A DNA stretch of 64,000 nucleotides from Pseudodesulfovibrio sp. JC047 (lineage in GTDB: Bacteria > Desulfobacterota > Desulfovibrionia > Desulfovibrionales > Desulfovibrionaceae): assembly GCF_010468615.1 (NCBI RefSeq), contig NZ_WUEH01000008.1, positions 1 to 64,000 on the forward strand. The letters are read 5' to 3'. This document shows, in pieces, positions 3,821 through 52,749 of the stretch. The position numbers and the translations under genes are program-made. Every line of letters starts with the position of its first letter. The stretch's first letter is position 1. Under the pieces are notes generated by a model. The model did no database searches and was not told where the DNA came from. It worked only from the letters and a program-made list of their open reading frames with translations.

Positions 3821-4933
3821 TTATTGTCTTGAACGACGGGTCAATGCATGTGCTCTGAGAGTCCTGAGTTTTTCACCGGATTTTGCTCCGAGATTCCTGT
3901 CTTCTGGTTTGAGTTTCACCTTGAGAATGGTTGCGAGATTTCGTTGGGCTCGGCTGCGATAATCTTTATCCTGATCAACCAGAACAAGGGCAAAAAGCGG
4001 TTCCAACGTCTCTGAAAGATGTGTGTCCATGAGAAGATCGACTTTGGTTCCGGCGCGCAGTTCTTCATATCGGGCCGCAATCATGTGCCATTGTGCGGCT
4101 TTTATTCCCGCAGTGAGGTGTCGATTGGACAACTTGAGCCGGTGAACAAGGGTCTTGATGCGTGGGATTCCGGCACGATCATGTCCGTAGTGGTGCGGAA
4201 GGCGGTCCTTGGGCGTGGCTGTCTTGCCAATGTCATGACAGAGTCCCATCCATACAGTCATGGGGTCTCCGGCCAGACTGTCCATGGTCCGGCAGGTGTG
4301 TTCCAGAACATGCGTATCGTGATACGGAGCAGGTCCGGCGGGAATGGTTGCGGCATCGTAAAATTCTTCGAACCAGGGCGACAGGCAGTCTGTTTCCGCG
4401 AGCAATCGCAGAAAATTGCCGGGAGCCGGGGCCGAAAGTGCCTTGATGAGTTCCTGACCAACTCGTTCCGGGGACAGGGTTGCAAGCAGCCCTGTTTTTG
4501 CGACGGCCCGCATGGTGTCTTTTAGTTCCATATGTGGGGTGAAATCGGGAAGCTGTGCCCAGAAACGCGCGGCACGATAGACCCGGAGTGGATCGATATG
4601 GAATGCCTCGTGAGAAGCGGGGCGGAGGATGGCGTTGTTCAGGTCGTCCAATCCGTGCGGATGGCAGATCAATTCTCCATCGTCATCCAACAGGAGAGCA
4701 TTGACAGTCAGGTCTCTGGCTTTTAATTCTTCCAAGAGTGTTTCTGCTCGTGGAAAGGAAAATTCAAGCCCGTCCATCATGAAAATGGGAAAGGCCAATC
4801 CAATTTCGTGAGCCTTTGGAAACGCGTTGGTGAAATCGTCACGGGAAGTACCCGTGACAAGGTAGTCCCGATCATGGATAGGCCTGCCGAGTAGGAGGTC
4901 GCGGACAGCTCCGCCAGCAAGATAAAAGTGCAT
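3821..4933 (-). CDS. cca: tRNA nucleotidyltransferase with HD domain, CC-adding type by loop deletion
   Basis: A 370-residue class II nucleotidyltransferase in the E. coli Cca arrangement. Motif A is GGAVRDLLLG followed by DRD with the two metal-binding aspartates at 21 and 23; motif B is RDLTVNAL; motif D is DPLRVYRAARF. A C-terminal HD phosphohydrolase domain (HDTHVLEH, LCHDIGK) lies near residues 210-260. Compared with E. coli Cca as I recall it, about 18 residues are missing between motif A and motif B: SFPRAE runs straight into TLLEELKARDLT. Deletion of this flexible loop is the known hallmark of enzymes that add only CC to tRNA 3' ends. A second nucleotidyltransferase of A-adding type lies at 50062-52749. 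ATG 4933 is used because homology starts there. Divergent from birA, 27 bases apart. Confidence 0.88.
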   Translation of the reverse strand: MHFYLAGGAVRDLLLGRPIHDRDYLVTGTSRDDFTNAFPKAHEIGLAFPIFMMDGLEFSFPRAETLLEELKARDLTVNALLLDDDGELICHPHGLDDLNNAILRPASHEAFHIDPLRVYRAARFWAQLPDFTPHMELKDTMRAVAKTGLLATLSPERVGQELIKALSAPAPGNFLRLLAETDCLSPWFEEFYDAATIPAGPAPYHDTHVLEHTCRTMDSLAGDPMTVWMGLCHDIGKTATPKDRLPHHYGHDRAGIPRIKTLVHRLKLSNRHLTAGIKAAQWHMIAARYEELRAGTKVDLLMDTHLSETLEPLFALVLVDQDKDYRSRAQRNLATILKVKLKPEDRNLGAKSGEKLRTLRAHALTRRSRQ

Positions 4934-4960
4934 AATCGATACGATAACATAAGGTAACTC

Positions 4961-5857
4961 ATGATTCCACAAGGTATTTTCCTCGTTGAAAGTTCACCGG
5001 AACAGATAGCGGCAACCCATGATTCATGGTGTGCGGACATCGAGTCGCTCGGGCCGTGGTCTGTCTGTGATAACGCCGATTTTTCAGGACAAACGTGCAA
5101 GCGGGCACAGTGTGAAAGTGCTTCAACGCTGGTTGTTTTCCCTGCCTGCCACACGACCATGGAGTTGGCCCGGTCAATGGCTGAAGACTCCCTTTTGGGG
5201 GAGTGGGGAGCGGTTCTCAGTGTGGTGCAGGACGGCGGCAGGGGGCAACTCCGTCGCCCTTGGGTCTCGTTGCCGGGGAATGTTCATGCGTCCATTGTTT
5301 TGCCAAAGCCTCCCTCAGTCGGACCGTGGCGGGATATTTTACCGCAAATACTTCCACTGGTGGTCGGTTCCCTGTTTGCCGATGTTTTGCAGTCGCTTGG
5401 TGCGTCCATACAACTCAAATGGCCGAATGATATTCTTCAAAATGGTCGCAAGGTCGGTGGAATGCTGATCGAGGAACGGGCGGGCATCACGATTTTGGGG
5501 CTGGGGTTGAACCTCGCAGGGTGCCCGGATGACAGACAAATGCGTGATGATTGTTCGGCCCCTGCTGGAACGCTTGCCTTTTCGACGTTCAGCGGGGGGC
5601 CTTTGGTTCTCCTTGAAACCCTTGTAAGTCGTGGCAAAAATGTGTATGCAGTCATGCTCGACGAGATTCCACCTGCTCAATGTCTTCGCATGATTGAGAA
5701 CAGGTTGGCCTGGATGGGAAAGACTGTCCTGGTCCACGAGGGAAACCAAGATTCATATGAGGCCGTGATAACGGGCCTTTCCCCTCAAGGGGGACTCGTT
5801 GTAGTGCGTGGTGGAGAAGAAATTGTTCTGTATTCAGGGTCTATTTTTCCTCTCTAA
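4961..5857 (+). CDS. birA: Biotin--protein ligase, without HTH domain
   Basis: A 298-residue biotin ligase that would make biotinyl-5'-AMP and attach biotin to the acceptor lysine of carboxylases. The catalytic core holds GRGQLRRPW (the adenylate-binding loop, around residue 92), KWPNDI (around 151) and KVGGMLIEE, followed by a C-terminal SH3-like end. The first 55-60 residues do not resemble the winged-helix repressor domain of E. coli BirA and contain four cysteines (CADIES, VCDN, TCKRAQC), so transcriptional repression is unlikely. AAGGTAACTC precedes the ATG. The next gene, 69 bases downstream, is pyruvate carboxylase, its likely substrate, and the two are probably cotranscribed. Confidence 0.88.
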   Translation: MIPQGIFLVESSPEQIAATHDSWCADIESLGPWSVCDNADFSGQTCKRAQCESASTLVVFPACHTTMELARSMAEDSLLGEWGAVLSVVQDGGRGQLRRPWVSLPGNVHASIVLPKPPSVGPWRDILPQILPLVVGSLFADVLQSLGASIQLKWPNDILQNGRKVGGMLIEERAGITILGLGLNLAGCPDDRQMRDDCSAPAGTLAFSTFSGGPLVLLETLVSRGKNVYAVMLDEIPPAQCLRMIENRLAWMGKTVLVHEGNQDSYEAVITGLSPQGGLVVVRGGEEIVLYSGSIFPL

Positions 5858-23737: not shown

Positions 23738-23814
23738 TGGTAGCGAGGAGAGGACTTGAACCTCCGACTCTGCGGATATGAGCCGCATGCTCTGACCAAC
23801 TGAGCTACCTCGCC
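23738..23814 (-). tRNA. tRNA-Met (CAU), elongator type
   Basis: A 77-base cloverleaf on the minus strand: acceptor GGCGAGG paired with CCTCGCT (one G-U pair at position 1), D arm GCTCAGTTGGTCAGAGC, anticodon loop CTCATAT with CAT, T arm GGAGGTTCAAGTCCTCT, encoded CCA. The G1-U72 pair argues against the initiator, whose first pair is normally mismatched, but tRNA-Ile (lysidine-modified CAU) cannot be fully excluded by eye. Confidence 0.9.
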
Positions 23815-41986: not shown

Positions 41987-42073
41987 GCCGAGGTGGTGGA
42001 ATTGGTAGACACGCTGTCTTGAGGGGGCAGTGGAAGAAATTCCGTGGGGGTTCGAATCCCCCCCTCGGCACCA
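41987..42073 (+). tRNA. tRNA-Leu (GAG), first copy
   Basis: An 87-base type II tRNA: acceptor GCCGAGG/CCTCGGC, D arm GTGGAATTGGTAGACAC, anticodon loop TTGAGGG with GAG, a long variable arm (TGGAAGAAATTCCG), T arm GGGGGTTCGAATCCCCC, encoded CCA. Fifteen bases after secG, so probably processed from its transcript. Confidence 0.96.
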
Positions 42074-42988: not shown

Positions 42989-43075
42989 GCCGAGGTGGTG
43001 GAATTGGTAGACACGCTGTCTTGAGGGGGCAGTGGAAGAAATTCCGTGGGGGTTCGAATCCCCCCCTCGGCACCA
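42989..43075 (+). tRNA. tRNA-Leu (GAG), second copy
   Basis: An 87-base gene identical in sequence to the copy at 41987, including the encoded CCA, 915 bases further on. AT-rich sequence with TTGACT and TATAAG lies just upstream and may hold its own promoter, although the spacing of those boxes is too short to call. Confidence 0.96.
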
Positions 43076-50061: not shown

Positions 50062-52749
50062 ATGAGTAAAAAAACACCGAAATTGTCCGCACCAATCGTC
50101 ATCACAGGACATGCCAATGCGGATTTTGACGCTTTGGCCGCGATGGTCGCCGCGAGTAAATTATATCCTGATGCCGTGCTTATTTTTCCAGGCAGTCAGG
50201 AAACAAATCTCCGGAATTTTTTCATTGAAAGCACAATATATCTTTTTAATTTCAAGGCGTTCAAGGACATTGATCCTACGTCTGTGGAATTGCTCGTCGT
50301 GGTGGATACCCGACAGCGTTCGCGGATTCCGCATGTTCGTCCCGTGCTGGATAATCCCAATTTGCGTATTCATGTCTATGACCACCATCCTGACAGTGAA
50401 GAAGATTTGCCTGCGGAAAAAAGTGTGGTCAGATCGTGGGGAGCGACAACGTCAATCATCGTGGACGAGATTCGGAAACAGGGATTATCGGTCAATCGAG
50501 AGGAAGCCACCCTCCTCGGTCTTGGCATATATGAAGACACCGGGTCTTTTGCGTTCAATACCACGACCCCGCATGACTTTGAGGCCGCAGGCTGGCTCAA
50601 GATGCAGGGAATGGATATCGAGGCAGTCTCAGAACTCCTGACTCGGGAACTGTCTGCCGCACAAGTCACGTATCTCGGCGATTTGCTCAAAAATGCAACG
50701 ACGTATGATATCCATGGTGTTGACGTTATCATCACTGAAATTTCCACCGACCGTTTCGTCCCGGATTTTGCCTTGTTGGTGCATAAATTGATGGACATGG
50801 AAAAAATCAAGGTGGTTTTCGCTCTGGGCCGTATGGCTGATCGGATTCATGTGGTCGCTCGGTCAAGAAATCCTGACGTGAACGTCGGACAGATCTGTTC
50901 TTCGCTTGGAGGTGGCGGCCATGAAGCTGCGGCTTCGGCCACAGTGAAAGACAAGACTCTGGCCGAATTGCGGGATGATCTGTTTGCCCTGTTCTATTCC
51001 CAGATTAATCCGCAAATCGTGGTCGAGGGGCTGATGTCCCGCCCTCCTGTTGTTATCGGCAGTGACAAAAATATCGCGGATGCCGTGGAGCTGATGACCC
51101 GGTATGGATTGAAAGATGTCCCGGTCGTGGAGACCGAGACCATGGAATGTGTTGGTATTATGGGACACAAGATCGCAGACAAGGCTCTTTCGCATCATTT
51201 GGGACAGGTGAGCCTGTGTGAATACATGACCCGGTCCTTTGATACCGTCGAAGTGAAGACGGATTTGTACCGTGTCATGGAGATCATTTTGAGCAATCGA
51301 CAGCGAATGTTGCCTGTCGTTGATAATAAGGTATTGGTTGGAGTCATCACTCGAACAGATTTGATGAACATGCTGATTGATGAACCGGCTCGTATCCCGG
51401 ATTCGTTGTTGCCGGACCGACGTCGAGAACGCAGTATCGTGGGGCAAGTGCGAAATCGTCTTCCACAAAAAATGCTTGAACTTTTAAAGACTGCGGGAGA
51501 ACTTGGACTCAGTCTGGGCTGGGAAATATACGCTGTGGGCGGGTTTGTTCGCGATATCCTTTTGGGTCGGCCCAATTTTGATCTTGATCTGGTGGTTGAA
51601 GGCGATGGTATCGCCTTTGCCCGCAAATTTGCCAGTCTTGCAGGAGGTCGGGTCAAGGCGCATTCCAAATTCAAGACCGCCGTGGTCATTCTTGATGACG
51701 GTCAACGGGTGGATGTGGCGACCGCTCGGCTTGAATATTATGAATACCCAGCCGCATTGCCAACTGTGGAGCTGTCATCCATCAAGATGGATTTGTATCG
51801 ACGCGATTTTACTGTCAACGCCTTGGCTCTGCGGATCAATCCTGGAAAATTTGGACAACTCGTTGATTTTTTCGGCGCAGAACGGGATTTGAAAAACCGA
51901 ACCATCCGCGTGTTGCATTCATTGAGTTTTGTCGAAGACCCCACACGAATTTTGCGGGCTATTCGATTTGAACGCCGTTTTGATTTTCGCATTGGCGGAC
52001 AGACCATGCGGCTGATAAAAAATGCGCTCAATCTGGAGCTGTTCAGCAAATTGTCTGGCACCAGAGTCATGCATGAATTGCAGTGGATCATGAATGAAGA
52101 TGACCCGCTCGCCTGTTTTGTCAGGATGCAGGAGCTGGGGATCATGGCCGCCATTCATCCGCTCCTCAAATTGACCCGAGATCGGGTCCAGATTCTGACG
52201 GAATTGGGTAAGGTCCATAGTTGGTACAAGTTGTTGTATCTGGAACCGGAAGTGACGCCGTGGAAACTGTACATTCTCGGCATGACATTGGGGATCAAAC
52301 ACAAGGATATCGAGCAGATCACGACCCGTTTGCATTTTACCAAAAAGGAAGAGCGAGATTTTATTCAGTTGCGTGATATGATCGGCGACGCCCTGATGAA
52401 GCTTATGAGTTGGCGTGAAGGCTCATCTAAACTCAGTCAGTTGTATACCATCCTGCACCCGCTTCCCGTGGAAGGCGTGTTGTTTCTCATGGCACGGAGT
52501 CAAAAGGAACATATCCGCCGCCATATTTCACAATATCTCGCTCGGTTGCGGTATATCGAGATTGATGTCGACGGTAAAGATTTGCTAAAGATGGGGCTTG
52601 AGCCAGGTCCTATTTATGCCTTAATTCTTGATGCGCTCATGTGTGCCAGGATAGACAATCAGGTCGAGACCTATGAAGAACAGTTGGCCTTTGCTCAAAA
52701 AAGGTATGAAGATTACCGTACCGAGGAACAGAATTCTACTGAAAAATGA
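50062..52749 (+). CDS. DHH-CBS-poly(A) polymerase fusion, A-adding type tRNA nucleotidyltransferase
   Basis: An 895-residue protein with three parts. Residues about 12-310 are a DHH phosphoesterase (HANADFDAL, VVDT, YDHHPDSEED) with a DHHA1 domain (GGGGHEAAASA). Residues about 315-450 are two CBS domains. From about 475 comes a class II nucleotidyltransferase: GGFVRDILLG, FDLDL, RRDFTVNAL, EDPTRILRAIRF. The loop before motif B (TARLEYYEYPAALPTVELSSIKMDLYRRD) is full length. This architecture is known for A-adding enzymes, for example in Aquifex, that complete the CCA end after a CC-adding enzyme. The short-loop enzyme at 3821-4933 would be the CC-adding partner. A DHH part could also act on nanoRNA or cyclic dinucleotides. 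Confidence 0.85.
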   Translation: MSKKTPKLSAPIVITGHANADFDALAAMVAASKLYPDAVLIFPGSQETNLRNFFIESTIYLFNFKAFKDIDPTSVELLVVVDTRQRSRIPHVRPVLDNPNLRIHVYDHHPDSEEDLPAEKSVVRSWGATTSIIVDEIRKQGLSVNREEATLLGLGIYEDTGSFAFNTTTPHDFEAAGWLKMQGMDIEAVSELLTRELSAAQVTYLGDLLKNATTYDIHGVDVIITEISTDRFVPDFALLVHKLMDMEKIKVVFALGRMADRIHVVARSRNPDVNVGQICSSLGGGGHEAAASATVKDKTLAELRDDLFALFYSQINPQIVVEGLMSRPPVVIGSDKNIADAVELMTRYGLKDVPVVETETMECVGIMGHKIADKALSHHLGQVSLCEYMTRSFDTVEVKTDLYRVMEIILSNRQRMLPVVDNKVLVGVITRTDLMNMLIDEPARIPDSLLPDRRRERSIVGQVRNRLPQKMLELLKTAGELGLSLGWEIYAVGGFVRDILLGRPNFDLDLVVEGDGIAFARKFASLAGGRVKAHSKFKTAVVILDDGQRVDVATARLEYYEYPAALPTVELSSIKMDLYRRDFTVNALALRINPGKFGQLVDFFGAERDLKNRTIRVLHSLSFVEDPTRILRAIRFERRFDFRIGGQTMRLIKNALNLELFSKLSGTRVMHELQWIMNEDDPLACFVRMQELGIMAAIHPLLKLTRDRVQILTELGKVHSWYKLLYLEPEVTPWKLYILGMTLGIKHKDIEQITTRLHFTKKEERDFIQLRDMIGDALMKLMSWREGSSKLSQLYTILHPLPVEGVLFLMARSQKEHIRRHISQYLARLRYIEIDVDGKDLLKMGLEPGPIYALILDALMCARIDNQVETYEEQLAFAQKRYEDYRTEEQNSTEK

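Follow-up and report, generated by a model that had tools for sequence, protein, structure and literature searches.

A loop-less Escherichia coli-type Cca of Pseudodesulfovibrio sp. JC047, predicted to add CC beside a putative A-adding partner

E. coli Cca adds CCA. CCA synthesis is reportedly split in Geobacter sulfurreducens, for which the title of a 2009 study by Bralley et al. names separate C- and A-adding enzymes together with a poly(A) polymerase, and CC-adding enzymes are said, following Neuenfeldt et al. in 2008, to have arisen repeatedly. Three PDB chains are referred to below: 3wfo, labelled poly A polymerase, which we take to be the Aquifex aeolicus CC-adding enzyme; 1vfg, presumably the A-adding chain of Aquifex; and 3h37, presumably a chain of Thermotoga maritima.

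Two sequence features bear on these activities. In a 2025 paper (PMC11784652), the amino-acid template (motif D) of A- and CCA-adding enzymes is given as EDxxR or DDxxR only, that of CC-adding enzymes varies at the first position, and the loop glycine G70 of E. coli Cca is reported to be important for A addition. Deletions or mutations of the loop abolish or strongly cut A addition in the enzymes tested, according to PMC11784652 and PMC7014341, the latter citing the work of Neuenfeldt et al. for the loop deletion. A long loop placed into a CC-adding enzyme did not always confer CCA addition, as a review notes (PMC3925840), and the loop is therefore not the sole determinant. No paper tying these enzymes to Desulfovibrio or Deltaproteobacteria was found in a literature search whose coverage leaves the main papers outside and which has little bearing on novelty.

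Here we describe the cca gene of the window, that is, the whole stretch of 64,000 nucleotides analysed, and a second nucleotidyltransferase gene at 50062. From their sequences we consider it highly probable that Cca has become CC-adding by loss of its flexible loop, that A76 is added by the 50062 protein and that the pair serves for repair. The features discussed are as follows.

3821..4933, minus strand: cca, an open reading frame for a 370-aa tRNA nucleotidyltransferase of class II, E. coli Cca type, with CC addition predicted
4232..4237, minus strand: HD pair H233 D234 of the C-terminal HD domain, in invariant alignment columns
4583..4597, minus strand: motif D (amino-acid template) IDPLR, residues 113-117, with I at the E/D position
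4715..4750, minus strand: site of the missing flexible loop, RAETLLEELKAR, residues 62-73, placed by alignment
23738..23814, minus strand: tRNA-Met gene, CCA encoded
41987..42073, plus strand: tRNA-Leu (gag) gene, CCA encoded
42989..43075, plus strand: second tRNA-Leu (gag) gene, CCA encoded, identical in sequence to the first
50062..52749, plus strand: DHH-DHHA1-CBS-CBS-nucleotidyltransferase fusion of 895 aa, the predicted A-adding partner

The cca gene starts with an ATG at 4933 and its coordinates include the stop codon. The protein matched the Pfam families PF01743 (PolyA_pol head) and PF12627 (RNA-binding neck), and all the class II signatures, GGxVRD...DxD, RDxTxNA and motif D, are present. 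Its top NCBIfam match was NF008137 (multifunctional Cca) at 194 bits, below the cut-off of 451, and it is 73% identical to a relative in a Pseudodesulfovibrio metagenome assembly. The window protein and 14 relatives of the genus all keep the DxD pair, the third acid, the RD in motif B and, in motif D, both D and R. An alternative TTG start at 4972 would run into the divergent birA start at 4961; an N-terminal extension suggested by upstream conservation was discarded, the conserved stretch being the start of birA. The two genes start back to back (window 4933-4961, 27 bases between), and a birA start was seen by eye upstream of cca in all 20 genus loci viewed, window included. An AlphaFold2 model of the window Cca, built on a two-sequence alignment with one relative, had a mean pLDDT of 37 and was set aside.

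Window Cca is 35% identical to E. coli Cca and colinear with it through head, neck and C-terminal HD region, with the HD columns kept, but lacks both the 18-residue loop and the EDPLR template of the latter. A MAFFT alignment of window Cca, 14 orthologues from its genus and E. coli Cca placed a single 18-column gap relative to E. coli between RAE and the helix preceding motif B, where the window protein reads PRAE-TLLEELKARDLT; the E. coli residue G70 falls inside this gap. Accordingly, the distance from R62 to R73 is 11 residues as against 29 in E. coli, that from motif A to motif B 66 as against 84, and that from the third acid to motif B 16 as against 34. The window protein thus lacks the flexible loop of E. 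coli-type CCA-adding Cca. The first-pass annotation, which had put the shortfall ahead of motif B at about 18 residues and called the loop missing, is borne out by this alignment, and the shortened length holds in every same-genus locus measured.

Indeed, the motif A-motif B distance is 66 in all 30 genus loci parsed, window and L004 counted (of the other 29 same-genus loci, 28 could be parsed, the exception being L061, which is truncated by a contig end). The third acid lies 16 residues ahead of the motif B arginine in the window and in 29/29 other same-genus loci, L061 included, although the proteins of L004, L038 and L039 are identical and these loci are therefore not all independent. Absence of the loop is a fixed character of the lineage, and neither chance nor an assembly error.

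Of the 47 second enzymes that were measured in the order, taken to be Desulfovibrionales, 44 (window included) share the 16-residue spacing and the other three have 32 (60 genomes were sampled, of which 7 had an unread hit and 6 no close match). For the phylum we used the third acid-motif B distance, obtained from profile picks and a MAFFT alignment, because insertions elsewhere in the head spoil the motif A-motif B measure. It amounts to 30 in 21/21 A-adding-type proteins and to 33-34 in 8/8 E. coli-type reference Ccas, all of these with template E, and to 31 in loop-bearing single enzymes. Among the best 40 PF01743 loci, mostly poly(A)-polymerase-like by eye but including two single-enzyme rows (L077 and L084), it ranges from 28 to 62. 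In the third-acid column itself, Q stands in place of E or D in L247, L250, L253 and L255, which are outer orthologues from the order, and in L141, L146 and L148, three further partners in the phylum sample; if the alignment is right, these enzymes would use two acids.

The template of the window Cca, IDPLR, carries isoleucine at the position that is described as variable in CC-adding enzymes. Across the order's 44 loop-less enzymes, counting that of the window, this position is D in 16, E in 9, A in 7, I in 4, S, N and T in 2 each, and V and Q in one each; it is thus acidic in 25/44 and non-acidic in 19/44. In the phylum sample, 56 of 97 loop-less second enzymes have an acidic and 41 a non-acidic residue; E is found in 11/11 loop-bearing second enzymes. 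The difference between loop-bearing and loop-less enzymes, counted as E versus any other residue, gives p 2.5e-7, uncorrected for kinship.

The C-terminal part of the protein provides no such distinction. Among the columns that the window Cca shares with E. coli are H212, H233, D234, H248, H251 and H283, and a motif scan found the HD motif in 42/44 rows of the order (L004 being a duplicate row), in 7/8 E. coli-type loop-bearing enzymes and in 70/89 other loop-less partners, as well as in the chain of 3wfo. Since the HD motif is common among loop-less partners, it does not set the window Cca apart, and the initial view that keeping it is unusual for a CC-adding enzyme had to be given up.

The predicted partner at 50062 has a loop segment of 30 residues and the template EDPTR, hence both a loop and an acidic template. 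Its top match, NF041569 (A-adding tRNA nucleotidyltransferase), extends over positions 3-876 of 880 with 861 bits, below the cut-off of 1440, which was passed by none of the proteins in the 34 genomes scored (top score, 1096 bits). A genome search for PF01743 found no third protein beyond Cca and the 50062 fusion; the window genome has a separate A-adding-type enzyme beside the CC-adding candidate. Split CCA synthesis would be shared with G. sulfurreducens, judging by the title of the 2009 study, which in contrast also lists a poly(A) polymerase where two PF01743 proteins were found here. An extra PF01743 protein, poly(A)-polymerase-like by eye, occurs in families f4 and f5 (L005-L014). The two genes are about 45 kb apart in the window; by eye, they are separated by about 30-90 kb in many same-genus genomes and by up to 300 kb in others of the genus. 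This spacing is regional synteny and not an operon.

By reading-frame length, an A-adding-type protein is present in all of the 59 close genomes (of 60) with a PF01743 hit, window included, two of these proteins being shortened by contig ends. In a phylum sample of 108 genomes, window included, the A-adding type was assigned to 101 by a hand list; five of these proteins are short, lacking DHH and CBS, and two were seen in pieces. A loop-less partner accompanies the A-adding type in 97/101 genomes versus 0/7 genomes without it, in which a loop-bearing enzyme is present and a loop-less one was not found. This association has a Fisher p of 4.6e-9 (G076, unmeasurable, excluded) but amounts on the gene tree to one phylogenetically independent pair, the seven loop-bearing single enzymes forming one clade. 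G135 encodes a loop-less partner together with the A-adding type and, as a third enzyme, an E. coli-type Cca that has the loop (L133, L220).

Three A-adding-type genomes depart from the pairing, having a loop-bearing second enzyme alone. All belong to family f26: in G132 and G153 the second enzyme beside the A-adding type has a loop of 33 residues and template E, and G108 is alike except that its A-adding gene was seen as a piece. The second enzymes of these three genomes (L238, L241 and L242) all read EDPLR, and two of the three loops begin like those of the E. coli type. In a further set of exceptions, the partners of G036, G049 and G053 (L228, L229 and L230) have a 32-residue segment of loop length but of different sequence, with the templates ADPLR, SDPLR and EDPLR; these are possibly CC-adding enzymes whose loop has decayed without being deleted. 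Exceptions of this kind, in families f2 and f26, are useful for testing whether loss of the loop marks a CC-adding enzyme.

The reading that we favour runs as follows. The ancestor of the window Cca would have been an E. coli-type CCA-adding enzyme, and the part lost would be the flexible loop that follows the third catalytic acid and precedes motif B. The single nucleotide pocket, deprived of the loop, would be fixed for CTP and could not switch to ATP, so that polymerisation would end after C75. The template residue serving the ATP state may have drifted later, giving the I of the window Cca, and the DHH-CBS-nucleotidyltransferase encoded at 50062 would be left to add A76. Damaged tRNA ends may first be cleaned by the HD phosphohydrolase domain that Cca has kept. 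CC-only addition is well supported by two signs, loop loss and the non-acidic IDPLR. The 50062 protein likely adds A, given its intact loop, its likeness to NF041569 and its loop-less partner. The division of labour proposed in the first-pass annotation is retained as a prediction for both enzymes, and the claim attached to the HD domain is dropped.

Other explanations concern either member of the pair. The 50062 fusion might be a complete CCA-adding enzyme as in Thermotoga, leaving to the loop-less protein an accessory CC-adding or end-healing role. Indeed, CCA addition is documented for the Thermotoga homologue of the Aquifex A-adding enzyme (PMC3925840), and family membership therefore cannot separate A- from CCA-adding enzymes; the nucleotidyltransferase half of the 50062 protein scored higher with 3h37 (260 bits) than with 1vfg (190 bits), and in G046, a genome 94% complete, a 50062-type protein is the sole PF01743 protein found. 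G050 and G054, in which a partner was not found either, are nevertheless just 84 and 85% complete, and retention of the loop-less enzyme in 97/101 genomes would be odd were it dispensable. We regard this explanation as unlikely, though the most serious of those weighed here.

It is much less probable that Cca still adds CCA, another segment replacing the loop. The core motifs are intact and R62, at the place of the arginine of E. coli ARTE, is invariant in 15 genus sequences; yet just 6 of the 15 have an acidic residue (E or D) where E. coli has the E of this stretch, a compensating insertion was not found between third acid and motif B, the template is IDPLR, and A addition is reportedly lost or strongly impaired when the loop is deleted or mutated in the enzymes tested (PMC11784652 and PMC7014341). 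Slightly less credible again is a degenerate nucleotidyltransferase site in a gene retained mainly for HD phosphohydrolase activity. In its favour, the histidine and aspartate columns of the HD region stay unchanged as far as E. coli, and Q takes the place of the third acid in the four outer orthologues of the order; against this, the DxD pair, third acid, motif B RD and motif D residues show no substitution in the window and its 14 genus relatives. A CC-adding Cca working with an A-adding 50062 protein thus remains the preferred reading.

The origin of the loop-less enzymes was examined with a quick tree of 110 head-and-neck sequences with the loop columns removed, its rows picked by hand from a pool of 222 measured rows and 8 reference loci. 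All 23 enzymes sampled from the order cluster together (SH-aLRT 100) and join the loop-bearing E. coli-type Ccas and the loop-less L131, L132 and L134 (SH-aLRT 93), while the other loop-less partners (44 tree rows) are placed elsewhere. On this tree a single origin for all loop-less enzymes was rejected (AU test, p 0.00012). For the E. coli-type loop-less forms, namely the window clade with L131, L132 and L134, the comparison of one loss with two gave p 0.468. A profile of 15 of the other loop-less partners matched 3wfo with 426 bits over residues 33-506 of 525, as compared to 172 bits for 3h37; read from the profile alignment, 3wfo has a loop stretch of 20 residues and begins its template with R. 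The window Cca resembles this presumed Aquifex CC-adding enzyme in its short loop segment (16 residues versus 20), in a non-acidic first template residue, in the A-adding enzyme beside it and in an HD motif in the body. It differs in lineage, the Aquifex enzyme matching the larger partners of the phylum whereas the window clade goes with the E. coli-type Ccas.

These data lean, somewhat better than evenly, towards an independent origin of CC addition on an E. coli Cca backbone within the order to which the window's bacterium belongs, apart from the Aquifex type found in much of the phylum; the loop would have been lost and the template have drifted later, the HD domain being kept in a background of encoded CCA. 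CC addition by loop loss is already a known route; for a protein that very probably adds CC only, the E. coli-type backbone and the separate origin would be the points of interest. Were the independent origin true, split CC and A addition would have been kept purely as a tRNA repair pathway. The window Cca illustrates how much of a CC-adding prediction can be drawn from sequence, since the length of its loop segment, its template, its partner and its place in the gene tree all point the same way. As a clean natural deletion beside the well-studied Cca, the E. coli-type loop-less lineage makes a good test of template decay after loop loss, and it also suits asking why a cell that encodes CCA keeps two separate enzymes.

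The CCA ends are indeed encoded. Rfam located 59 tRNA places in the genome. ARAGORN was run on 50 loci plus the window, picked to cover 52 of these 59 places (collectively, not by one-by-one matching), and read 105 tRNA genes, at least one from every source; they represent 42 distinct sequences, and 42/42 end in CCA. As every tRNA gene read encodes CCA, the Cca and 50062 pair most likely repairs eroded tRNA ends, a role that the sequences suggest. The three tRNA genes of the window are among those with encoded CCA, and its two tRNA-Leu (gag) copies lie about 1 kb apart.
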